NCBI RefSeq assembly: GCF_001605725.1
Contig: NZ_CP011530.1
Coordinates: 4,464,001-4,528,000 of the forward strand
Direction of reading: 5' to 3'
From: Mycobacteroides immunogenum
GTDB taxonomy: Bacteria > Actinomycetota > Actinomycetes > Mycobacteriales > Mycobacteriaceae
Length of the DNA stretch: 64,000 nucleotides
The notes below the pieces were generated by a model. The model was not told where the DNA came from, searched no databases, and saw only the letters and a program-made list of their open reading frames with translations. The translations under genes were made by a program, and so were the position numbers. Of the stretch, positions 1,070-12,045 are shown one piece after another (the stretch's first letter is position 1; every line of letters begins with the position of its first letter).

Positions 1070-1177
1070 ACCGGGTCGGGCCTCACGCCCACACGAAGGA
1101 AGTAGTCCGCTACTCGTGCGGGCTCCTGTTCACCGGTCCTACGGTTCGGGAAGACCCACCACCCCGAGGAGCCGATC

Positions 1178-1423
1178 ATGACAACGCTTGAACGCCAAGC
1201 AATCCGGCAACCATCACACACGCCCACAACCAAAGTGGCAGCCAGCGGGACCGCCGGTGCGATCTCGGTTCTGCTGGTCTTCGTTCTCGGTAAGTTCGAC
1301 ATCCAAATACCGGGAGACGTCGGCTCCGCCATCACCGTGCTCTTCTCGGCGGCCTGCGGCTACCTGGTGCATGAACGCACCGTTGTGCAGCGGCCGGCAC
1401 CGCGAGCCAGGGATGAGAATTGA
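1178..1423 (+). CDS. Small membrane protein, holin-like in architecture
   Basis: This 81-residue protein has two hydrophobic segments, GAISVLLVFVLGKF (about 27-40) and ITVLFSAACGYLV (about 51-63), separated by IQIPGDVGSA. The tail is short and charged. The pattern of a variable N-terminus, two helices and a PGDV turn resembles small proteins found in mycobacteriophages and prophage remnants, but I cannot name a family. A GAGGAG-type ribosome binding site lies a few bases before ATG 1178. With the neighbouring MerR and SulP genes it forms an accessory patch with no menaquinone-region synteny. Phage origin is only a suggestion. Confidence 0.55.
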   Translation: MTTLERQAIRQPSHTPTTKVAASGTAGAISVLLVFVLGKFDIQIPGDVGSAITVLFSAACGYLVHERTVVQRPAPRARDEN

Positions 1424-1441: not shown

Positions 1442-4159
1442 CTACGGGCGGTGTGCCTGCTCCTGCGGGTCGGCCAGGTCGCTCCACACGATCTTGGCAA
1501 GCTGATCGCGATCCACGACATCGAGTTTGATGCAGGCGCGGTAGATGTGCCCCTCAATGGTGCGCACCGAGAGAGTGAGCCGCTCGGCGATCTCACGGTT
1601 GCACAAGCCTTCACCGATCAGGGCCGCGATCTCACGCTCGCGCGCGGTGACCGGCAGCGGACGCGCGGCGGCCCGGATGGCTGGCGTGGCCGCACCACCA
1701 CACTGGCCGGCGATCCGCAGCGCACGCGCCGCGGACTCGGCGCTCTTGCTTCGATCCCCACTGCGACTCAGCAGCGCTACCGCCTGCGCAGCGGCATCGG
1801 CCGCCGAGAGCAGCAGGCCCGCATTCTCGAATTCGATGCTGATCTGAACCAGCGCCGCGGAATCGGATGCGCCGACGGCGAGCGCATGCCGCGCGTACAG
1901 CCCCACCAGCGGACCATGCACCCGCGGGGCAAGTGATTCCAGGCGGCGAGCCACCGTCCGGTCACCGAACCGCGCCGAGTGGTGCAGCGCTTCGGCCTCC
2001 ACCGCGTATTGCCCGGCGGTGTGTGCGGCATCGGCCGCACGACGGGCGATATCCACCGCCGACCGGTCCGCGCCGCGGGCGGCGGCCAGCCACGACTTCG
2101 CGATCAACAGCTGTGGGTCATGCAGCGCGACGAACTGCCCCGCGTGCTCGCCCGATTCGGTCAGCACACGCTCCGCGTCTTCGACCTTCCCGAGCGCCGC
2201 GTAGGCACGCGCCAGCAGTAGTCGCGCGGGCAGCTGCCACGGCAACGGCCGCTCGGCGTTGAGCGCCGCCAGCGCCTGTTCGATGGAGGAGATCGCCGTA
2301 GGGAATACACCACGGTGCACGGCGACCAGACCCGCCATGATTCGTGCTATCGCCCACGCGAGAAACTGTCCAGCGGAGGAGAACTCGGTGTACTCGGTAA
2401 CGCGGCGGTCGGCCAGCTGGAGCTGCCCGGTGTAGACGAGTGCCAGTACGTCGCAGTAACGCACCATCACCGCGATCATGCCGTCGGTGGACCGTTTCTG
2501 TGCGCGACATCTCGCCGCGATCGGCTCGAACTCGTCACCACGCCCGGCGACAGGCAGCGCGAGCCCGATACCGAATGCCGCGAATTCCACGGCCTGCCGG
2601 GGAGCCTCCGGGTCGGACAGCACGACGGTCGCGGCGGCAAGCCCGTCATCGAACTGGTTCTCGTGCACGGCCAAAGCCGCGCCCGTCGCGTCGACGACGA
2701 GTTTCAAGGCAGGATGCCGCACCCGTTCACGCAGCAGTGCCATCAGCTCGTGCGCACGCCGGACATCGCCCATCGACCAGAACGCGATGGAGACGAGCGG
2801 AAGGCCCCAGAGAACCAGGGAAAGCTCATCGAGCTGGTCCGGATCGAACTCGGCGAGCGCCTGCTCGGCTTCCTCGGGCCGGCCCTGCCACAGCAGCGCG
2901 CGCGAGAGCACTTCGGCCGCGCGCAGACCCCCATCGCGTTCGACCGCGCACCGCGCCAAGTGTTCCCCGACAGGAAGGTTGGACAGGTATACGGCGTCCT
3001 TCGCGGCGGAGACCAACAGGGCCGGATCGGTGACTTCATCACTTTCGACGGACAGTTGCGCGAGCCGAATGCGTTTGGCCGCCGAGTCGATATCGCGTTC
3101 CCGGAGTGCCCGTACCAGCTGACCACGCAGGCGCCGGGCCGATGCGGTGCCCACCCTGCGCCGAATCACCTCACCCAGCATCGGATGGCTGAACCGCACG
3201 TTGATACGACGGCCGTCGGCTTCGACACGGACAAAGCCGGTGAGCTCCGCGCCGTCCAGCGCGTCACCGCCGGCAATCTCGCACAACGTGTCGAGGTTGA
3301 GCGGTTCGCACAGGGACAGCAGTTTGAGCACGTTGAGTACATCGCCGTCCAACTGTTCGAGACGATCTCCCAGCAGCGCGGCCAAGCCCGAGGGGACGAC
3401 GGTGTTGCCGCGCAGCTGCCACACCCCGTTGACGGCGGTGAGGGATCCGGCCTCAACGGCGCCCTCCACCAGGTGGCGCAGGAACAGCGGGTTTCCACCG
3501 GATGACTCCCACATCACGTCTGCGCTCAGCCCTTCGAGCGCACCGCCGAGCACCGATTCGACCAGTGCGACACTCTGCTCCTTGGTGAACGCCTCGAGTT
3601 CGAACCGGCGTAGATAGTCGTCCTTCCACAACGCGGTGACCGCGTCCGGAACAGGCTCGCCGCTACGCACCGTGGCGACCAACCGGCTGGCATGCCCGAC
3701 AGCTATCTGATGCAGCAAGGTCGCGGAGAGGTCGTCCAGCAGATGGGCATCGTCGACTCCGATGATCGGATGTGGCGACGCGACAATGGATTCCCGTGCC
3801 GCGGCAATGAGCGCGGCCGGATCACGCGATCCGGTCGCCTGTATCCAATGGGCGAATACTCCCAATGGAATACTCCGCGACGATTCGGTACATGCCACCC
3901 AGCGAACCTGACATCCCAACGAGTCGGTGACGGTACGCGCGAGGGTCGTCTTGCCGACTCCGGCGGAGCCGACCAACACCACGCCGCACGACACACTGTC
4001 CGTCAGCGTCGAGCGAACGGCGTCGAATTCGGTTGGGCGGTCGAGCAACTGCCAGCTCCCCGACATGGGAAAAGAGTCTAGATCGCGATGGCGGTTTGCG
4101 TAAGCCGGTCCGTGGGAGGGCTTCTGCTGCCCGGCGATTTTGGTGATCGAAACTGTCAT
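1442..4159 (-). CDS. Large LuxR-family regulator with N-terminal AAA/STAND-type ATPase (LAL/MalT-like)
   Basis: The protein has about 905 residues. Residues 40-300 form an ATPase module with Walker A GSAGVGKTT (about 64-72) and Walker B IIGVDDAHLL. A long helical, TPR-like middle follows, and a C-terminal LuxR/FixJ helix-turn-helix lies at about 835-895 (TAREREIAALIGEGLCNREI, then LSVRTIEGHIYRA). Such regulators bind a ligand or protein through the central part and activate transcription in an ATP-dependent way. The open frame reaches upstream to 4252, but I start at ATG 4159 because a GAGAAGG ribosome binding site precedes it and the catalase-related gene ends only 10 bases upstream. It is therefore probably co-transcribed with that gene and autoregulated through the GAGTA-N6-TACTC sites, for which it is the obvious candidate binder (inference). 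Confidence 0.9.
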   Translation of the reverse strand: MTVSITKIAGQQKPSHGPAYANRHRDLDSFPMSGSWQLLDRPTEFDAVRSTLTDSVSCGVVLVGSAGVGKTTLARTVTDSLGCQVRWVACTESSRSIPLGVFAHWIQATGSRDPAALIAAARESIVASPHPIIGVDDAHLLDDLSATLLHQIAVGHASRLVATVRSGEPVPDAVTALWKDDYLRRFELEAFTKEQSVALVESVLGGALEGLSADVMWESSGGNPLFLRHLVEGAVEAGSLTAVNGVWQLRGNTVVPSGLAALLGDRLEQLDGDVLNVLKLLSLCEPLNLDTLCEIAGGDALDGAELTGFVRVEADGRRINVRFSHPMLGEVIRRRVGTASARRLRGQLVRALRERDIDSAAKRIRLAQLSVESDEVTDPALLVSAAKDAVYLSNLPVGEHLARCAVERDGGLRAAEVLSRALLWQGRPEEAEQALAEFDPDQLDELSLVLWGLPLVSIAFWSMGDVRRAHELMALLRERVRHPALKLVVDATGAALAVHENQFDDGLAAATVVLSDPEAPRQAVEFAAFGIGLALPVAGRGDEFEPIAARCRAQKRSTDGMIAVMVRYCDVLALVYTGQLQLADRRVTEYTEFSSAGQFLAWAIARIMAGLVAVHRGVFPTAISSIEQALAALNAERPLPWQLPARLLLARAYAALGKVEDAERVLTESGEHAGQFVALHDPQLLIAKSWLAAARGADRSAVDIARRAADAAHTAGQYAVEAEALHHSARFGDRTVARRLESLAPRVHGPLVGLYARHALAVGASDSAALVQISIEFENAGLLLSAADAAAQAVALLSRSGDRSKSAESAARALRIAGQCGGAATPAIRAAARPLPVTAREREIAALIGEGLCNREIAERLTLSVRTIEGHIYRACIKLDVVDRDQLAKIVWSDLADPQEQAHRP

Positions 4160-4169
4160 CGCAACCTTC

Positions 4170-5294
4170 TCAGTCCGGTAGATCCTGGACCCCCGCCGGC
4201 TCCATCCGCGACACCCCGTTCTTTTCATGCCTGAAGTTGCTGGATGCCTCATAAACCTTGAGTTTCAATCGATTGATCGATCCCAGCGGCCGATGCGCGG
4301 CCAGAGCGCGCCACGAATTGAAGGACAGCACATCGTCACCGAAAACCTGCCGCGCGGTGCCATATGAATCCTGCACGGGGAAGATGATTTTGGCGATACC
4401 CCGGTGCGGGGAATCCGTTTCGGGCCACGCGACGGTGGCATCCTCGAGCGGCATCGTCTTGGCATCGGTGCACAGTTGGGCCCGCAATTCATACTCAGCG
4501 CTGTTGTGCTGAAAGAACTCTGAGACCAGATGGCGGAACTCGTCGTCAGCGATATCGTCCGGCAGCAGCACTCCCTCAAGGTCCCGCACGGACTTCGACA
4601 GGGGTACGTAACTGAGTTTGGCCACATACTCCCCGTACCGCAGCGGTGCCGAGGAGTAGAAGGTATCGCCCAGGATATGCGTGTTGGGACGGACGAACAC
4701 CGCCACCGATTCCGGGAGTGAGAGTCCCACGCGTGGAAGAATTTTCGCCACCCCGCCCAGAAGGTTGCTGCCCAACCTCAGCGCGGTGTCCGGCAGGCGC
4801 GCCAGCAACCAGGCCGTCGGCATTCCCCGCCGCAGATACGCCTTGGCGTCCGCGAACAGGAACTCGCGGTGCGTAACCAGCACAAAATCCTGGGTGGTGG
4901 CCTCATCGTCCGGGAGCGTCCGCGGACCACTCACACCCAGAACCTTGATACCCAGGCCCCGCACGCCCCGAATCCGGTCGCTGCGCAGCAGGCCGGACGT
5001 GGTGGACAACCTGCAGATGACCGGGTACGCACCAGCAGTCGAGAACATTCCCTGGCGTAGGTGCGGCGGTAGATCCGGGTACACGATCAGCTCGCCACGC
5101 AAGATGCCATGACTCTTCGCGTGCGCATCCCGGACAGCATGCCGGTACTTCCGGAAGGCGCGTTCGTTGTTGGTATGCAGTACTTTGACGATCTTGTCGA
5201 TGGCTTCGTCCTCACCGGGAGGCGTCGCGTCCATCTCCTCGCTGTACGGGAGGTAGGTACGCGTGGGGTCGAGCGATTCATCCGTTGTGCTCAT
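4170..5294 (-). CDS. Catalase-related haem protein (mini-catalase / allene-oxide-synthase-like superfamily)
   Basis: The 374-residue protein is shorter than true catalases (about 480 or more). Segments matching the catalase core are AHAKSHGILRGELIVYPDL (about 57-75, probable distal His58), CRLSTTSG (about 94-101), RGVRGLGIKVLG (about 109-120) and DFVLVTHREFLFADAKAY (about 136-153). YSSAPLRYGEYVAKLSYVP is typical of bacterial catalase-family proteins. The classical R-x-x-x-Y haem-tyrosine motif is altered; Tyr348 in NRLKLKVYEAS is my candidate proximal ligand. Relatives act on organic or fatty-acid hydroperoxides, including coral allene oxide synthase and a M. avium peroxidase. Start ATG 5294 has a GGGAGGA site upstream and discards a 58-residue open extension. 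It is divergent from the dioxygenase gene and upstream of the LuxR gene. Confidence 0.82.
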   Translation of the reverse strand: MSTTDESLDPTRTYLPYSEEMDATPPGEDEAIDKIVKVLHTNNERAFRKYRHAVRDAHAKSHGILRGELIVYPDLPPHLRQGMFSTAGAYPVICRLSTTSGLLRSDRIRGVRGLGIKVLGVSGPRTLPDDEATTQDFVLVTHREFLFADAKAYLRRGMPTAWLLARLPDTALRLGSNLLGGVAKILPRVGLSLPESVAVFVRPNTHILGDTFYSSAPLRYGEYVAKLSYVPLSKSVRDLEGVLLPDDIADDEFRHLVSEFFQHNSAEYELRAQLCTDAKTMPLEDATVAWPETDSPHRGIAKIIFPVQDSYGTARQVFGDDVLSFNSWRALAAHRPLGSINRLKLKVYEASSNFRHEKNGVSRMEPAGVQDLPD

Positions 5295-5357
5295 CGCGGC
5301 CCAGTCCTCCCGTATTGGTGATGCGCTCAGTGTCGTGAATGCCGGAGGTGCGCGCAT

Positions 5358-5373
5358 GAGTACACGACTACTC
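5358..5373. promoter_or_regulatory. Operator-like inverted repeat GAGTA-N6-TACTC, site 1 (catalase-related promoter)
   Basis: Perfect 5-bp arms GAGTA and TACTC flank 6 bp (CACGAC). The centre is 71.5 bp upstream of the catalase-related start codon. On the minus strand a -10-like GACACT begins 31.5 bp from the centre. Read on that strand the right half extends to TACTCATG, as in sites 2 and 3. Probable binding site of the adjacent LuxR-type regulator (inference). Confidence 0.7.
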
Positions 5374-5457
5374 AATCCTGCGCCGCGGCTGACGCCGATG
5401 TAGGCGAAACGGCGAGGTATTCCCGGCGCTATCGGGAACCCGAATTCCACGAGGATC

Positions 5458-5473
5458 GAGTAGCCCAATACTC
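5458..5473. promoter_or_regulatory. Operator-like inverted repeat GAGTA-N6-TACTC, site 2 (dioxygenase promoter)
   Basis: Perfect arms, spacer GCCCAA, followed by ATG to give the TACTCATG extension. It lies exactly 100 bp from site 1. A -10-like CAGCAT at 5498-5503 begins 32.5 bp from the centre and ends 7 bases before ATG 5511. No ribosome binding site is visible, so the dioxygenase mRNA may be leaderless. No -35 box is evident, as expected for an activator-dependent promoter. Confidence 0.7.
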
Positions 5474-5510
5474 ATGTTCCGGCCCGCCGGAATTTGTCAG
5501 CATTACCGGT

Positions 5511-7319
5511 ATGGCGAAAAAGAATGACGCCGCCAAATCGGCCACCACACTGGCGTCGTGGCTCGCAACACGAATCGATCGGTCGATCGGGTGGTCCCGG
5601 CTTCCCACGGCATTCGGCATCGCGGTACTCATCGGGCTGCGCAACGCGCTGCGAGCCGACAACCTGTTCGACACGGGACGGGCGCCTGGCGGATCACCGC
5701 CGCCTGAGAACACCGACTACCGCAACGCCCGGACCGTCGACGGCACCTACAACAACCTTGAACACCCACTGATGGGATCGGTCGGCAGCCGCTTCGGGCG
5801 CAACGCACCCCTTGCCCAGACTTTCCCCGAGCCCCCCGAACAACTCCTGGACCCGAATCCGCGGCTGATCAGTCGCAGGCTGCTGACCCGCGACGAGTTC
5901 ATTCCGGCGACGACGCTGAACGTACTGGCCGCCGCCTGGATCCAGTTCGAGGTCCACGACTGGTTCAGCCACAACACCGTCGAGACCAAACCATGGTCCG
6001 TGCCGCTCGACGGCAGCGATCCGTGGCCACAACGCCCGATGCAAATACGCCGCACCGCACCCGACCCGTGCCCCGACGCGTCAGGCCCCCCGACGTTCGT
6101 CACGCAGGACACCCATTGGTGGGACGGATCGCAGGTCTACGGCGGCACTCGCGAGGTCGCCGAGGCACTGCGTTCCGGAAGCGGGGGCACACTGCGGATG
6201 GACGGGCAGGGCCTGCCGCCTGCCGATGTCGAGGCGCTGGCCAGCACATCGGAGACGGCCGCGAACTTTTGGGTCGGTCTGGCCGTCCTGCATTCGCTGT
6301 TCATGCGGGAACACAACGCGATCTGCGAGCATCTGGCTGCCTGCCATCCGGAAATGTCCGATCAGGAGCTGTACGACAAGGCCCGTCTGGTCAACACCGC
6401 GCTCATGGCGAAGATCCACACGATCGACTGGACTCCCGCGATAATCGGGCACCCCACCACGGTATTCGCGATGCACACCAACTGGTCCGGCATTCTCGGC
6501 GAGCGCCTGAACAACCTGTTTCAGCGTCAGCCGCATAACGCTCTCCTACGCGGCATACCCGGCTCCCCGACAAGTCTGCACAACGTGCCATATTCGCTGA
6601 CCGAAGAATTTGTCGCGGTGTACCGGATGCACCCGCTCATTCCCGACCGTTTCGTGCTGCGGTCGGCGTCTGACGATTCCGTGCTCGCCGAGCATGAATT
6701 GCCAGATCTCGCCGTTCAATACGTGCGCGCCCGCTTCAGCGAGACACCACTGGAGAACATCATCTATTCGTTCGGCCGCGCCCACCCGGGCGCACTGACT
6801 CTGCATAACTTCCCACGCCATCTACAGCGTCTGGAGCGGCCGGACGGGTCCATTTTGGACCTCGCAGCCATCGATGTGCTTCGCGTCCGTGAGCGGGGCG
6901 TCCCCCGCTACAACGAGTTCCGCCGGATGCTGCGGCTGCGGCCGGTGTCGTCTTTCGGCGAGCTCACCGACGACCCGGTGGTGGCCAAGGAGCTCGCGGC
7001 GATATACGGCGACGATGTGGAGCGGGTGGATCTGATGATCGGACTGTACGCGGAGCCCAAACCGAAGGGATTTGGCTTCAGCGACACAGCCTTTCGAATC
7101 TTCGTATTGATGGCGTCCCGGCGGCTGGAAAGCGACAGATTCTTCACGTCCGATTTCCGGCCCGAGATCTACACCCCGGAAGGCCTCGCATGGGTGAGAA
7201 ACAACTCGATGCGTTCGGTGCTGCTCCGGCACTTCCCGTCCCTGGCCGCCGCCCTGGACGGCGTCACGAATCCTTTCGCACCGTGGACACCGACATGGGC
7301 CGGCAGATCGACCGAGTAG
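5511..7319 (+). CDS. Haem-dependent fatty-acid dioxygenase, alpha-DOX/cyclooxygenase-like (animal haem peroxidase superfamily)
   Basis: The 602 residues are close to plant alpha-dioxygenase length. Diagnostic motifs are WIQFEVHDWFSH (143-154) with distal His149, THWWDGSQVYG (201-211), and VYRMHPLIPDRF (370-381). In the last, Tyr371 and His374 reproduce the Y-x-x-H pair of catalytic tyrosine radical and proximal haem histidine in alpha-DOX and cyclooxygenases. This argues for fatty-acid oxygenation giving hydroperoxides rather than plain peroxidase activity. No signal peptide is visible, so it is probably cytoplasmic or peripheral to the membrane. It diverges from the catalase-related gene, whose product could consume the hydroperoxide (inference). 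The stop codon lies inside operator site 3. Substrate and regiochemistry cannot be read from the sequence. Confidence 0.9.
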   Translation: MAKKNDAAKSATTLASWLATRIDRSIGWSRLPTAFGIAVLIGLRNALRADNLFDTGRAPGGSPPPENTDYRNARTVDGTYNNLEHPLMGSVGSRFGRNAPLAQTFPEPPEQLLDPNPRLISRRLLTRDEFIPATTLNVLAAAWIQFEVHDWFSHNTVETKPWSVPLDGSDPWPQRPMQIRRTAPDPCPDASGPPTFVTQDTHWWDGSQVYGGTREVAEALRSGSGGTLRMDGQGLPPADVEALASTSETAANFWVGLAVLHSLFMREHNAICEHLAACHPEMSDQELYDKARLVNTALMAKIHTIDWTPAIIGHPTTVFAMHTNWSGILGERLNNLFQRQPHNALLRGIPGSPTSLHNVPYSLTEEFVAVYRMHPLIPDRFVLRSASDDSVLAEHELPDLAVQYVRARFSETPLENIIYSFGRAHPGALTLHNFPRHLQRLERPDGSILDLAAIDVLRVRERGVPRYNEFRRMLRLRPVSSFGELTDDPVVAKELAAIYGDDVERVDLMIGLYAEPKPKGFGFSDTAFRIFVLMASRRLESDRFFTSDFRPEIYTPEGLAWVRNNSMRSVLLRHFPSLAAALDGVTNPFAPWTPTWAGRSTE

Positions 7320-7329
7320 GCGAATACTC
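7314..7329. promoter_or_regulatory. Operator-like inverted repeat GAGTA-N6-TACTC, site 3 (subtilase promoter)
   Basis: Perfect arms, spacer GGCGAA, followed by ATG to give TACTCATG. It overlaps the dioxygenase stop codon. The centre is 78.5 bp upstream of the subtilase start, and a -10-like CACAAT (7354-7359) begins exactly 32.5 bp from the centre, as at site 2. This suggests the protease genes have their own promoter under the same regulator. Confidence 0.7.
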
Positions 7330-7399
7330 ATGACCGACAACGGCGTTTGGGTTCACAATCATCAGATGAGCCCCACCGGATTCATGTCTTCGGTGTGCG

Positions 7400-8926
7400 A
7401 TGACTAGCCCCGTGCCCCGTGGTCCCAAGCGGCCATCGGTCATCAGCCCGATGGTCCTGGCCGACCCGCAGACGGCACCGCCCGCCGAGGCCAACGCCTT
7501 GGTCACCGACGATGACGATCGCAGGATGGTGCTGATCGAGCTTCTCGTCGGTACCGGCATCGACCCCAAGCACGTGCGCGATCAGTTCCTGCACATGTTC
7601 CATCGAGTACTGCGTGACGAGCCACCCACACCGACGCCCGTCGGGCGCCACTATGTGCGGTGCATGCTCACCCCTGATGAAATCCAGCGTCTGGTTCGCG
7701 GGGGCGCCAAGTCCCCGACCGCAAAAAGCGCACAACAAGCACTGCAATTGATCTGGCGGGTGTGGCCCGACCTGGTGGTTGAGGCACACCTGGACCGCTC
7801 ACTCACCACGATCAAGGCCGATGCGGCGATCCGCACCTATGGCTCCGGTGGAACCGGTGTCGTCTGGGCGGTGCTGGATTCGGGAATCGATGCCGAGCAC
7901 CCGCATTTCGCGGCCAACGGCACCCTCACCGCTGACTGTGTCAGACCGCTGCACAAGGACTTCACGCTTACCCCAGGTGTTTCGAAGGGGCCGCTTGTCG
8001 ACGTCTACGGACACGGCACCCATGTGGCCGGCATCATCGCGGGCGAATCCCCCACCGATCCGAAACTCATCCGGATCGCATCCACTCAACCGACTGCCGA
8101 GGGGCTACCGGAATGGGTACCGCGGGTACTGGCGCAGGGGTCGCGGCTGTCCGGGGTGGCTCCACACGCCAACCTGGTGAGCCTCAAGGTGCTCGACGAC
8201 GACGGCAAGACCCTGTCGAGCGTGCTCATCGACGCCCTCAACTACGTGCGCGAGATCAACAGCTACGGCAATGACTTACAGATCCACGGCGTGAATCTGT
8301 CTCTGGGATGCGGCTGGATGCCAAGGGACTACGCGGCGGGCCAAAGCCCGCTGTGCCGCGAACTCGATCTGCTCACCGGGTCCGGGGTGGTCTGTGTCGT
8401 GAGCGCCGGAAACCTCGGGGCCGGCACCGCGGCGGCCGGTGTGGGCGCCGCGATCATGGGAACAGCGACCGATGTCTACGGTCAGCTCTCTACCATCACC
8501 GACCCCGGGAATGCCGCCACCGCGATCACCGTCGGCTCGGTCCACCGGTACCGGCCGCACACCAGCGGGGTCACCTTCGACTCCTCAAAGGGGCCGACTC
8601 TCGATGGCCGGCGCAAACCCGACCTGGTGGCCCCCGGTGAGCGAATAACTTCCGCGGCAACCGGTCTCATGGCCAAGGGCATTGACGTGTTGAAGGACGA
8701 CGGCACCGAGGGGGCCGCCAACTACATCGAAGACAGCGGCACCTCGATGGCCGCCGCGCATGTGTCGGGTGCGATCGCCGCGTTCTTGTCGGCTCGCACG
8801 GAGTTCGTGGGTAAACCACAAGAGGTCAAGGACATCTTCCTGAAGTCGGCCGTCGACTTGGGGCGCCACGAGTTCTTTCAGGGCGCCGGTCTTGTCGACC
8901 TGATGCGCGCACTATCCAACACCTGA
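7400..8926 (+). CDS. Subtilisin-like serine protease (peptidase S8)
   Basis: The protein has 508 residues. A prodomain-like N-terminal part of about 150 residues precedes the catalytic domain. The triad is intact: Asp160 in VLDSGID, His205 in GHGTHVAG, Ser449 in GTSMAAAHVSG. The oxyanion Asn338 sits in SAGNLG. There is no signal peptide or membrane anchor, unlike mycosins (MycP), so this is not an ESX protease and probably acts inside the cell or leaves by another route. It begins a co-directional run with an alpha/beta hydrolase 17 bases downstream and a V8-like protease further on. The ribosome binding site before ATG 7400 is weak. Confidence 0.92.
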   Translation: MTSPVPRGPKRPSVISPMVLADPQTAPPAEANALVTDDDDRRMVLIELLVGTGIDPKHVRDQFLHMFHRVLRDEPPTPTPVGRHYVRCMLTPDEIQRLVRGGAKSPTAKSAQQALQLIWRVWPDLVVEAHLDRSLTTIKADAAIRTYGSGGTGVVWAVLDSGIDAEHPHFAANGTLTADCVRPLHKDFTLTPGVSKGPLVDVYGHGTHVAGIIAGESPTDPKLIRIASTQPTAEGLPEWVPRVLAQGSRLSGVAPHANLVSLKVLDDDGKTLSSVLIDALNYVREINSYGNDLQIHGVNLSLGCGWMPRDYAAGQSPLCRELDLLTGSGVVCVVSAGNLGAGTAAAGVGAAIMGTATDVYGQLSTITDPGNAATAITVGSVHRYRPHTSGVTFDSSKGPTLDGRRKPDLVAPGERITSAATGLMAKGIDVLKDDGTEGAANYIEDSGTSMAAAHVSGAIAAFLSARTEFVGKPQEVKDIFLKSAVDLGRHEFFQGAGLVDLMRALSNT

Positions 8927-8943
8927 AGACGAGCGAGTACATC

Positions 8944-10215
8944 ATGACAACCATCAAAGGATTGCCCTACTACGAACCGGATTTCAACGCCGACGGCTCG
9001 CTCAACGACGCCACCGGTGACGGCGACGGCGGATTGCCGGCCGCCGTCGCGAACGGAAGCATCACCGATCTGTTCCTGATGTCGCACGGATGGAACAACA
9101 GTGTGGCCTCCGCGCGCCAGCTCTACACCGCGATGTTCTCGCTGATCGCCGATCAGCTCGGCGCAGATACCGCCGGTGTGGCCGTCGCGGGAATCAACTG
9201 GCCATCGGTGCTGCTGCCCGACGACAGCCCGGATAGCGCGCCACCCGTACCGTCCACGGGCGCCGAGCTCGCCGCGGCGCTGGCACCGGGTTTCCCCGGC
9301 CAGGACGCGCAGCTGAAAAAGATGGGCGAGCTGCTCGATGAGAAACCGCAGCAGTCCGCCAAGCTCATCGAGTTTCACACCTTGGCCGCCGGACTCGTCA
9401 CCACTGCCGCGCAGTCACCGGAGGACAGCGGCGAGTCGGACATCGTGAAGGGCGATCCGCTCGCGGTGTTCGGGCAAGCTGCCGCCATGGCACCGAAGTC
9501 GACGGGTGCCGCACAGGGACTTGGCAATCCCTTCGCCGCGCTGTGGTCGGGGGCGCGCGAGATCCTGCGCACGATGAGCTATTACGAGATGAAGAACCGT
9601 GCGGGAGTCATCGGCCAGCACGGCCTTGGTCCGCTGCTGGGCACACTGTCGGGACCGGGCGGCCCGCCCCGCATACACCTGATCGGACACAGTTTCGGGG
9701 CGCGGCTGGTCTCCTACGCGCTGGCAGGGCTTCCGGAGGCCGGCACCAGCCCCGTCAAGTCGCTCACCCTGATCCAGGGCGCCTTCTCGCATTTCACCTT
9801 CAATCGTCAGCTGCTCTTCGATCCGGGCCGCGGGCCCGGCGGTCTCGCCGGGCTCGAAGAGCGCGTGGACGGGCCGCTGCTGTCGACATTCACCGCCGCC
9901 GACCGCGCGGTCGGCTGGTGGTATCCGGCGGCCAGCATGCTTGCGCGGCAGGACGCCCAGGCCGGACAAGACCCTTGGTTCCGCTGGGGGGCAATGGGTC
10001 ACGACGGGTACCAGCAAGACCCGGCCGCGACGACACTCGAGCTCGCGGACGCCGGAAAGCCGTACGACTTCCAGCGCGGGCGGTTCTACCGGCTTGACGC
10101 CAACAGAATCATCGCCGACGCCAGCCAATCCGCGTTCAGCGGTGCACACAGCGATATCAGGCACCCGGAAGTGGCGTGGGCAATCGTCTCGGCCGCGCGC
10201 GCAACCCAGAACTGA
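8944..10215 (+). CDS. Alpha/beta-hydrolase of lipase/esterase type
   Basis: The protein has 423 residues. SITDLFLMSHGWNNSVASAR (39-58) matches the oxyanion-side strand of serine esterases with a SHGWNN signature, and LIGHSFGARLVSYAL (246-260) is the nucleophile elbow with Ser250. A late histidine (for example in FSGAHSDIRHPEV near the C-terminus) could complete the triad. A long insertion between strand 4 and the elbow (about 85-225) is rich in Ala, Gly and Pro. There is no secretion signal. It lies 17 bases behind the subtilase and is surely co-transcribed with it. In this context it could release fatty acids for the dioxygenase (inference); no substrate can be assigned. Confidence 0.75.
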   Translation: MTTIKGLPYYEPDFNADGSLNDATGDGDGGLPAAVANGSITDLFLMSHGWNNSVASARQLYTAMFSLIADQLGADTAGVAVAGINWPSVLLPDDSPDSAPPVPSTGAELAAALAPGFPGQDAQLKKMGELLDEKPQQSAKLIEFHTLAAGLVTTAAQSPEDSGESDIVKGDPLAVFGQAAAMAPKSTGAAQGLGNPFAALWSGAREILRTMSYYEMKNRAGVIGQHGLGPLLGTLSGPGGPPRIHLIGHSFGARLVSYALAGLPEAGTSPVKSLTLIQGAFSHFTFNRQLLFDPGRGPGGLAGLEERVDGPLLSTFTAADRAVGWWYPAASMLARQDAQAGQDPWFRWGAMGHDGYQQDPAATTLELADAGKPYDFQRGRFYRLDANRIIADASQSAFSGAHSDIRHPEVAWAIVSAARATQN

Positions 10216-10245
10216 ACACGAAAACTGCTCCCGCAGTGTGAGATC

Positions 10246-10261
10246 GAGTACCGCACTACGC
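10246..10261. promoter_or_regulatory. Operator-like imperfect inverted repeat, site 4 (V8-like protease promoter)
   Basis: GAGTA-CCGCAC-TACGC has one mismatch in the right arm against sites 1-3. Its centre is 78.5 bp upstream of the V8-like start, the same distance as site 3 to the subtilase start. A -10-like CAGGAT (10285-10290) begins 31.5 bp from the centre. Without the shared geometry I would not have called it. Confidence 0.55.
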
Positions 10262-10331
10262 GTGAATCAGGCTGCGATGCCGAACAGGATGAACACGTCC
10301 TAGCTCGAACTCACCTTACGCAGGAGACAAA

Positions 10332-11276
10332 ATGGCCACCGCAGTCAAGTCGACGAATCACAAGCCGTCCGAGACCGAGTACGAAATTTCTGGGTCCGCC
10401 GGCGCGGCCGCTGTCACCGAACACGAACTACCTTCGGCGCAAGCAAGCGACGCCGATACCGAGACCACCAACGCCGCAACCCAAGCCCATGGTGAATCCA
10501 CAATCAGTGAACTGGGCTCCCCCGACGCAGTGAGCACCGACGAGTCGGAGCTTGCGCCATTGGACGCCATTCTGGGGAGTTACCCCGAGTTGGCCAACCG
10601 CGCCGAGATCATCATCGGTACCGATGATCGTGTTCGGGTCACCAACACCACCACGTTCCCCTGGCGTGCGATCTGCCACCTGATCATCACCTCCGCCAAC
10701 AACCGCACCTATGTCGGAACGGGCTGGCTGATCGCGCCCCGCACCGTGGTGACGGCGGGGCACTGCGTCTACATGCATGCCGATGGCGGATGGGTGCGCT
10801 CGATCCAGGTGATTCCAGGGCGCAATGCCGGGACCCGCCCATTCGGCACTCACGTGGGCGCCGCCTTCCGCAGCGTCACCGGCTGGACCCAGAATCAGAA
10901 TCGCGACAACGACTATGGCGCGATCATCCTGCCGGCGTCGTCGCGTCCCGGCGATCAGACGGGGTACTTCGGTTTCGCTACCCGCAATGACGATTTCCTG
11001 AAGGCCTCCGCACTGAACCTGTCCGGGTACCCCGGCGAGAAGAATGGTGAGCAGTGGTTCATGGCGCAACGCACCAAGTCGGTCTCCGACCGCGTCATCA
11101 CCTACGACATCGACACCACGGGCGGCCAGAGCGGCTCACCGGTGTGGGTATTGCAGAACGGCAACCGCTATGGCGTAGGCATTCACACCAATGGTGCCAA
11201 TTCAGGCAACTCGGCCACCCGGATCAACAGCGCCGTCTTCAACAACATGTCGACGTGGAAGAACAACGGTATGTGA
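10332..11276 (+). CDS. V8-like (glutamyl-endopeptidase type) trypsin-fold serine protease
   Basis: The protein has 314 residues. The triad is His144 in VVTAGHCV, Asp194 in RDNDYGAI and Ser267 in TTGGQSGSPVW, the last matching the GNSGSP motif of staphylococcal V8 and Bacillus glutamyl endopeptidases. Residues 1-90 are acidic and low-complexity (many Glu, Thr, Ala) and look like a propeptide. The fold seems to start at IIIGTDDR (about 93), where these enzymes are matured. There is no classical signal peptide. A CAGGAG ribosome binding site precedes the ATG. Activation by the upstream subtilase is possible (inference). It shares the operator geometry with the rest of the cluster. Confidence 0.88.
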   Translation: MATAVKSTNHKPSETEYEISGSAGAAAVTEHELPSAQASDADTETTNAATQAHGESTISELGSPDAVSTDESELAPLDAILGSYPELANRAEIIIGTDDRVRVTNTTTFPWRAICHLIITSANNRTYVGTGWLIAPRTVVTAGHCVYMHADGGWVRSIQVIPGRNAGTRPFGTHVGAAFRSVTGWTQNQNRDNDYGAIILPASSRPGDQTGYFGFATRNDDFLKASALNLSGYPGEKNGEQWFMAQRTKSVSDRVITYDIDTTGGQSGSPVWVLQNGNRYGVGIHTNGANSGNSATRINSAVFNNMSTWKNNGM

Positions 11277-11320: not shown

Positions 11321-11563
11321 GTGGTCGGCGTCTCATTTCGCGACTCCGCCGGGCGTCCGATGGCCGGTGCTGTGATCAGCATCGACGCGGCGCCCGGCGA
11401 GGTCCACGATATTGCCATGGTGGCCGACGACTGGGGTGAGGTGGTCATCTCCGCGCCGGTCGCCGGTGACTATCGATTCCTCGTGTCGCACACCGGGAAG
11501 ACCTTTCATGCCACCGCACATATCGCCGAGGGACAAGATCAGCTCACGGTCACCGCCAGCTAG
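11321..11563 (+). CDS. Small beta-sandwich (Ig-like / carboxypeptidase-regulatory-like) protein
   Basis: This 80-residue protein has a strong AGGAGG site before GTG 11321. The pattern (VSFRDSAGRPMAGAVISID, then GEVVISAPVAGDYRFLVSH, then FHATAHIAEGQDQLTVTAS) is that of a single beta-sandwich domain of the carboxypeptidase-regulatory or bacterial Ig-like type. No signal peptide or catalytic residues are seen. It follows the V8-like protease by 44 bases and probably belongs to the same transcript. It may bind a partner protein or ligand of the protease cluster. No specific function can be assigned. Confidence 0.65.
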   Translation: MVGVSFRDSAGRPMAGAVISIDAAPGEVHDIAMVADDWGEVVISAPVAGDYRFLVSHTGKTFHATAHIAEGQDQLTVTAS

Positions 11564-11736: not shown

Positions 11737-12045
11737 ATGACAATTCAGGCACCCGCCGGCACGGCGGGCCCCGACGTCGATCTGATCTTGCTGGTCGAGC
11801 CCGGACCCGCGCATGACCTGAGGGAACACCCCGGCGGCCGCAACTCCGCGACGCCGATCGTGCAGGCCGTCGCGTCCGCGGGACACCGCATCGTGCCGCT
11901 CTACACCAATCCGGACACCGTTCCGCCGGAACTCCGGTCGATCTTTGTGGTCACCGCGCCCGCCAGCCCGGAGTTCAGTGACTTCGCCGAACGGCTGCGC
12001 ACGCTGCCCGGCGTGACATCGGCGTATCTGGATTCGGTGGCCTGA
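11737..12045 (+). CDS. Small protein resembling a free-standing subtilase propeptide (I9-like inhibitor/chaperone)
   Basis: The protein has about 102 residues. Its end, SIFVVTAPASPEFSDFAERL then RTLPGVTSAYLDSVA, has the helix and strand pattern with L-PGV-SAYLD that closes subtilisin propeptides and I9 inhibitors. The first 50 residues (DVDLILLVEPG onward) are not typical of I9. GTG 11728 and ATG 11731 are also possible starts, but AGGGAGG at 11722-11728 best serves ATG 11737. A free-standing propeptide-like protein close to a cytoplasmic subtilase could act as its inhibitor or folding helper (inference). A perfect hairpin terminator follows 40 bases after the stop. The assignment rests on a short motif. 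Confidence 0.6.
   Translation: MTIQAPAGTAGPDVDLILLVEPGPAHDLREHPGGRNSATPIVQAVASAGHRIVPLYTNPDTVPPELRSIFVVTAPASPEFSDFAERLRTLPGVTSAYLDSVA

Follow-up and report, generated by a model that had tools for sequence, protein, structure and literature searches.

Activators of the LuxR/NarL/DevR type bind palindromes near position −42, with the dyad next to the −35 element. Concerning the LAL regulators and MalT, the MalT box is given as short and non-palindromic (GGA[TG]GA), and it is stated that no consensus could be predicted for the Streptomyces LAL SCO6993 (excerpts of PMC9628970). Fatty-acid alpha-dioxygenases yield 2-hydroperoxy acids and Cn-1 aldehydes, and in plants they are stress-induced (excerpts of PMC9305512). 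We analysed a stretch of 64,000 nucleotides from Mycobacteroides immunogenum (contig NZ_CP011530.1, positions 4,464,001 to 4,528,000; the whole stretch is called the window), which contains a gene cluster with a LuxR-type ATPase regulator (here LuxR), a catalase-related gene (CAT), a relative of the fatty-acid alpha-dioxygenases (DIOX), a subtilase gene (S8) and a V8-like protease gene (V8), with copies of the palindrome GAGTA-N6-TACTC before its genes. A search of the open-licence literature found no description of this operator or regulon.

The cluster-situated LuxR resembles the LAL regulators and MalT in its N-terminal AAA/STAND ATPase, long middle region and C-terminal GerE helix-turn-helix (HTH); the DNA differs, in that here one sharp 16-bp palindrome is found at a fixed promoter distance and is conserved across genera. 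The GerE HTH is shared also with the LuxR/NarL/DevR activators (the solved HTH relatives of LuxR are EsrB, VraR, DevR and other response regulators), but LuxR has no receiver or autoinducer domain in the Pfam scan, and GAGTA/TACTC half-sites with N6 differ from the boxes of those proteins. The plant and cyanobacterial fatty-acid alpha-dioxygenase pathway is the nearest relative on the enzyme side, whereas here the predicted enzyme is encoded in a bacterial operon, beside a catalase-like partner and an ATPase regulator. The palindrome is a genuine conserved operator and very probably marks a regulon. Based on the comparisons below, we consider it likely that the LuxR-type ATPase (LAL/STAND) of the cluster has GAGTAGYCSACTACTC as its operator and would activate the cluster genes.

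Operator sites and their conservation

A first-pass annotation of the window, made from its letters alone, had reported three perfect palindromes and one copy with a mismatch; pattern counting places all four exactly there (Table 1). Its −10-like hexamers, their distances of 31.5–32.5 bp from the sites and the 78.5 bp between the last two sites and their start codons are also correct. It had seen none elsewhere in the window, and this has to be amended: at least six sites exist, including one with one mismatch at 1100–1115 (AAGTAGTCCGCTACTC, 24 nt 5′ of TACGGT) and a sixth 1.8 kb before the window (position 4462210 of the genome, G000; L051:6211-6745). At one mismatch or fewer the window holds five sites vs 0.30 expected, a number reached by none of 100 shuffles. 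The whole 5.57-Mb genome contains five perfect palindromes, three of them in the cluster, and two copies of the reversed control pattern.

Conservation was examined in the Mycobacteroides group, which comprises LB1, CBMA 271, the D16 records and genomes with 89–96% identical clusters. Nine genomes were compared: the window, L031, L032, L034, L035 and L052–L055 (L033 and L055 are one record, taken as a single genome). All five window sites are kept in 9/9 clusters, each within one mismatch. The invariant columns number 15, 12, 14, 12 and 15 of 16 at the five sites and 30, 16, 42, 20 and 11 of 74 in the respective flanks, which were compared without gaps, so that flank conservation is understated; the contrast is weakest at the S8 site. 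The site at 1100–1115 has 15 of its 16 columns invariant. The sixth site is found within one mismatch in seven of the other genomes (L031, L032, L034, L035, L052–L054) and with two mismatches in L055. It precedes a small open reading frame (ORF) that is a paralogue (63% over 92 residues) of the ORF at window 11737–12042; no operator with up to one mismatch was seen before the latter.

Outside this group, orthologous dioxygenase–catalase–LuxR operons are present in other mycobacteria, Nocardia, Gordonia, Millisia and one further genus; the dioxygenase itself is found at E<=1e-120 in 46/401 family genomes, more distant paralogues included. We took the 35 loci with DIOX, CAT and LuxR, several of which are closely related to each other, and counted in the 500 bp upstream all 1,024 half-sites at spacers of 0–20, i.e. 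21,504 palindromes. GAGTA-N6-TACTC ranks first, with exact copies at 19/35 operons; the best other pattern that is not a shifted version reaches 5. With up to one mismatch, it precedes 31/35 operons (31/39 when four later-fetched clusters are added). Among 12 dioxygenase paralogues without LuxR beside them, none has an exact site and two have a site with one mismatch. Concerning the four misses of the 35, L097 and L107 have two-mismatch sites in place, L100 belongs to a longer operon and has its site upstream of the leading gene, and L104 has none nearby. Both genomes of the two paralogues with one-mismatch sites (L121, L122) carry the cluster elsewhere, which is a hint of action in trans.

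Promoter architecture

A matrix was built from 33 sites outside the Mycobacteroides group. It includes two CAT–LuxR loci (L056, L061) and the two dioxygenase paralogues (L121, L122), omits L114, L115, L116 and L037, where the gene-nearest operator is unclear or degenerate, and does not use L117 (matched site identical to that of L115) or L104 (no site within 500 bp). The site used for L097, L098, L102, L105 and L107 is the one- or two-mismatch copy nearest the gene, a choice that preceded tabulation of the −10 positions; the L061 site also has two mismatches. The matrix contains two conserved blocks with an unconserved gap between them, TC-GAGTAGYCSACTACTC-RTG and then nAnAMT at positions 40–45, so that the promoter reads TC-GAGTAGYCSACTACTC-RTGNC-N17/18-nAnAMT. 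A41 and T45 occur together in 27/33 sites (next-best offset 7/33). In 21 out-of-sample strict sites the A/T pattern of the −10 is found in 13, and shifted by +1 in 6.

The RTG trinucleotide lies directly 3′ of TACTC at positions 17–19, asymmetric to the dyad, and is nearly invariant across genera (T in 32/33, G in 33/33). The first-pass annotation had seen no −35 boxes. Because RTG stands 17 bp before the −10 (17–18 bp overall; 17 bp for CAT and V8, 18 bp for DIOX, S8 and the small ORF in the window) and has no mirror image on the left, we read the TACTCATG extension as probably a −35 element, with RTGNC for TTGAC. Its reading as part of the dyad was rejected, as the left flank (ATC) does not mirror it and its position fits a −35. 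The consensus first T is missing from both elements: the −10 begins with T in 0/33 sites (position 40) and in 2/21 out of sample, and the −35 in 0/33 (position 17). The operator thus probably abuts the −35, with its centre near −44, as for a LuxR-type activator, and weak boxes under an upstream-bound dimer would resemble an activator-dependent promoter. The DIOX start codon lies 7 nt 3′ of the −10; therefore a leaderless mRNA is predicted.

The regulator and the weighing of explanations

LuxR has 905 amino acids (aa), close to the roughly 900 residues of LAL proteins, and aligns with its homologues over nearly its full length. The N-terminal ATPase with P-loop (AAA_22) scores 30.6 bits vs a cut-off of 27, and the C-terminal GerE HTH 39.7 bits (residues 838–890). 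The best-scoring NCBIfam relative is AbsR2 (E=8e-64), to which LuxR does not belong (216 bits vs a cut-off of 850). CAT and LuxR adjoin each other in every scanned cluster having both, across genera, which agrees with the earlier proposal that they form one unit.

A strict operator (GAGTAG-N4-CTACTC-RTG) was scanned in the 401 family genomes and gave 65 matches, two places being counted on both strands, in 46 genomes; the reversed pattern gave 4. The LuxR subfamily (E<=1e-160) is present in 44/46 of these genomes vs 154/401 overall (Fisher P=3e-18, uncorrected for relatedness). At least 28/65 strict matches share a contig with a listed regulator match and at least 17/65 have a subfamily gene within 8 kb, with four of these at 28–52 bp from the end of the regulator match; that all strict sites adjoin a regulator was accordingly rejected. 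Two LuxR homologues without DIOX or CAT beside them (L179, L181) have an exact site just 3′ of the LuxR gene. These data, together with the lack of a second close full-length relative of LuxR in the window's genome, support the first-pass proposal of LuxR as the candidate activator, and the HTH of this regulator type is most likely the reader of the operator.

We infer the following course. A dimer of the GerE HTH would bind the palindrome directly 5′ of the −35-like RTGNC, centred near −44; once the ATPase part has been switched on by an inducer, perhaps a fatty-acid-derived oxylipin, the regulator would recruit RNA polymerase to the weak promoter (RTGNC-17/18 bp-nAnAMT). It would activate its own catalase-like/LuxR operon, giving positive feedback, and also the divergent alpha-dioxygenase gene, the subtilase–hydrolase operon, the V8-protease operon and the small membrane-protein gene. 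The neprosin-like protease gene described below would probably be a target in trans.

A number of observations weigh against this reading. Two further paralogues from genomes with the cluster (L123, L124) have no site. None of the four later-fetched clusters (L182, L187, L189, L190) has a site with up to one mismatch within 500 bp of DIOX: the site of L182 is exact and lies 0.9 kb upstream with no clear gene between, L190 has a one-mismatch site 1.1 kb upstream and L189 a two-mismatch site, both with an extra ORF before DIOX as in L100, and L187 a one-mismatch site before the first, broken LuxR copy. Among six CAT–LuxR clusters without DIOX, only L056 is within one mismatch; L061 and L186 have two mismatches, and L046, L191 and L192 have no site. 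Eight LuxR homologues of 59–61% identity without DIOX or CAT (L062, L173–L178, L180) have no site in 16–18 kb except one stray one-mismatch copy. As many as 110/154 regulator-bearing genomes lack a strict site (looser sites not counted), and within the window's genus the figures are 6/21 vs 2/31 (P=0.04), the association lying largely between genera. Conservation of the S8 site could in part be due to its overlap with DIOX codons. Finally, copies with up to one mismatch number 41 in the whole genome vs 44 for the reversed control, so that rarity, one of the tests named in the first pass, carries no weight by itself at this level. The bare one-mismatch motif is therefore uninformative at this scale, and the scan was rejected as a regulon finder; the informative features are site position and flanks.

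The lack of enrichment is what would be expected if the palindromes were due to chance or to shared ancestry of neutral intergenic DNA. This explanation is hardly credible and in our view already refuted: the site recurs across genera in the same place, at a fixed −10 distance and in little-conserved surroundings, it leads all the palindromes counted, and within the Mycobacteroides group its columns exceed the ungapped flanks at all five sites, if least clearly at S8. It is also improbable, though far less so, that LuxR represses or acts in both ways at these sites. A position near −44 is that of LuxR/NarL-type activators, the operator lies 5′ of the −35 and −10 and not over them, and the missing first T of both boxes is a trait of activator-dependent promoters; in favour of repression, the site adjoins promoter elements and some LALs do repress, as given for SCO6993 in Streptomyces (excerpts of PMC9628970).

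Marginally more probable than repression, but still unlikely, is that a different regulator encoded elsewhere (a paralogous LAL/LuxR, or a protein of another family such as TetR or MerR) reads the operator and that the adjacent LuxR is only a target. Distant LALs of 34–36% identity in other mycobacteria speak for it. Those with the helix GHIYRAMAKTG have an exact site beside the gene in 2/2 cases (L220, L221) and those with GHVYRACQRV a one-mismatch site in 3/4 (L245, L251, L252; L216, with GHVYRACQ, has none), 19–47 bp past the gene end or, in L252, about 100 bp before the start. The half-site is thus not private to this orthologue and seems common to several paralogous LAL clades. In addition, G424 and G429 have strict sites and LALs of only 31–35% identity. 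In the window's genome three further matches to LuxR cover the HTH region only (E>=9e-10), and one of them sits in a 999-residue open frame, leaving room for a distant LAL; none matches along the length of LuxR. LuxR is the regulator gene common to the compared clusters. The MerR-family gene at 653–1069 is not conserved with them and was rejected as the regulator (no relative in 20 loci at E<=1e-8 or in 59 loci at E<=1e-12); MerR proteins act between the −35 and −10.

The recognition helix of LuxR offers a further comparison. Orthologues with the operator have an almost constant SVRT[IV]EGHIYRACIKL, while the eight 59–61% homologues have GHVYRACIKL-like helices and no site bar the stray match. 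No site was seen in sixteen loci whose helices read GHLYR-x-F-x-KL; some of these loci overlap, and they include only about 1.5 kb of flank. The correlation is suggestive only, because related loci are not independent and because of two exceptions, L216 and L182 (GHVYRASF, with exact sites). In L220 (position 4108, G476) and L221 (position 4153, G407) the operator was seen 22–37 bp after the end of the LAL match, before the next gene. In conclusion, the core of the first-pass reading is supported by these comparisons but needs correcting on three points (there are more sites, a −35 is probably present, and the half-site seems to serve a wider group of regulators), and its expectation of a fixed start distance agrees with the conserved −10 geometry.

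Cluster genes and candidate distant targets

The features of the cluster and the genes following strict sites elsewhere are presented in Table 1. CAT is catalase-related only, as it scores 20 bits vs the Pfam Catalase cut-off of 25; its nearest named matches are Mycobacteroides sp. LB1, CBMA 271 and three 'Mycobacterium sp.' D16 records (89–90%). By homology, DIOX is a relative of the fatty-acid alpha-dioxygenases over its full length: the best solved relatives are the plant enzymes 4kvj (E=7e-117, residues 23–593) and 4hhr (E=6e-109), and the next class is lactoperoxidase (8s6c, E=4e-36).

Table 1. Operators and genes of the cluster in the window, and some of the genes found downstream of strict operators in other genera
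Feature	Position or locus	Strand	Details
Operator, 1 mismatch	1100..1115	+	−35-like GTGCGG 1116-1121; −10-like TACGGT 1140-1145; 18-bp spacer; lies 5′ of small ORF
Small ORF, 81 aa, one apparent membrane segment (by eye)	1178..1423	+	tblastn 72-86% identity in related clusters; adjoins LuxR across Mycobacteroides group
LuxR-type ATPase regulator (LAL/STAND type)	1442..4159	-	Pfam: AAA domain, TPR-like region, C-terminal GerE HTH
CAT, catalase-related haem protein gene	4170..5294	-	10 bp upstream of LuxR, same direction; Pfam Catalase E=4e-4, below cut-off
Operator of CAT–LuxR promoter, perfect	5358..5373	-	TTGAGTAGTCGTGTACTCATG on minus strand; −35-like ATGCGC 5357-5352; −10 GACACT 5334-5329; 17-bp spacer
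Operator of DIOX promoter, perfect	5458..5473	+	−35-like ATGTTC 5474-5479; −10 CAGCAT 5498-5503; 18-bp spacer
DIOX, fatty-acid alpha-dioxygenase-type haem enzyme (animal haem peroxidase superfamily)	5511..7319	+	Pfam An_peroxidase E=7e-111
Operator of subtilase promoter, perfect	7314..7329	+	overlaps DIOX stop codon; −35-like ATGACC 7330-7335; −10 CACAAT 7354-7359; 18-bp spacer
Subtilase (S8)	7400..8926	+	Pfam
Alpha/beta-hydrolase-like gene	8944..10215	+	probably in S8 operon; Pfam E=9.5e-5, below cut-off
Operator of V8-like protease promoter, 1 mismatch	10246..10261	+	−35-like GTGAAT 10262-10267; −10 CAGGAT 10285-10290; 17-bp spacer
Trypsin/V8-like serine protease (V8)	10332..11276	+	Pfam
Small carboxypeptidase-regulatory-like (transthyretin-like) protein	11321..11563	+	3′ of V8, adjacency conserved; Pfam E=2e-5, below cut-off
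Haem peroxidase	L194		downstream of strict site
Trypsin-like domain fused to DNA/RNA non-specific endonuclease	L198, L203 (11563-13596)		downstream of strict site
Endonuclease	L200		downstream of strict site
M4 protease	L204		downstream of strict site
Patatin	L208		downstream of strict site
LCAT-like hydrolase	L203		downstream of strict site
CotH kinase	L195		downstream of strict site
MFS transporters	L196, L206		downstream of strict sites
TetR regulator	L199		downstream of strict site

Some side observations concern these genes. The subtilase and the V8-like protease have no obvious signal peptide by eye, which is odd for secreted proteases. In L055 (Mycobacteroides sp. CBMA 271) there is no tblastn match to the V8 gene, although the V8 operator still stands ahead of the transthyretin-like gene. 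In L189 (3033-5966), L190 (2918-6304), G439, G022, G472, G049, G061 and others, a single open frame of about 980–1015 or more residues spans the dioxygenase and catalase-like parts, apparently as natural fusions. LuxR matches as two segments lying in different frames, from broken genes or assembly errors, in L187 (G060), L113 (G432) and L120 (G233); G060 has two such copies around DIOX–CAT.

As the bare scan was unenriched over its control, all 41 sites of the window's genome were scored with the outside-group matrix. The best, 3024805(-) (L154), lies far from the cluster before a neprosin-like protease gene (Pfam Neprosin E=4e-54), followed by the V8, CAT and DIOX sites and then by 3702854(+), 964224(+) and the sixth site. 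The S8 and 1100 sites score low (13.7 and 11.7; best 33.2) because the matrix fixes the 17-bp spacer. The site at 3702854, which recurs in G088 and G092, lies before a 174-aa ORF that has no Pfam match, and no clear gene follows 964224. By eye, 3702854 also precedes an MspA-porin-like ORF (recurrence loci L169, L170), and L158 contains two operator-like sites 4 kb apart (3702854 and 3706788).

Strict sites were examined in 20 loci, mostly from genomes with at least two sites. A simple ORF rule was used to choose the downstream genes; 28 targets were located, and Pfam scans of 20 of them left six with no match at E<=0.01. Neprosin, M4 protease, endonuclease and patatin genes are among the predicted distant targets, and, judged from the predicted products, the theme of the targets is lipid oxidation and macromolecule breakdown.

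The recurrence of the operator beside the same regulator in many relatives points to a new gene-control circuit. Which DNA the LAL regulators read is poorly defined; a sharp operator with its promoter grammar would allow regulons to be assigned by sequence in a lineage with opportunistic pathogens among its members, and here it links a plant-like alpha-dioxygenase and a group of hydrolases with one testable switch. A broader view, tentative and more doubtful than not, is that GAGTAGYCSACTACTC abutting RTGNC may be the common operator code of a large LuxR-ATPase clade across Mycobacteriales, commanding a conserved arsenal of oxylipin-forming haem dioxygenases, proteases, nucleases and phospholipases in response to a signal such as a lipid oxidation product. 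If true, bacteria would have here a counterpart to the alpha-dioxygenase response that pathogens induce in plants.

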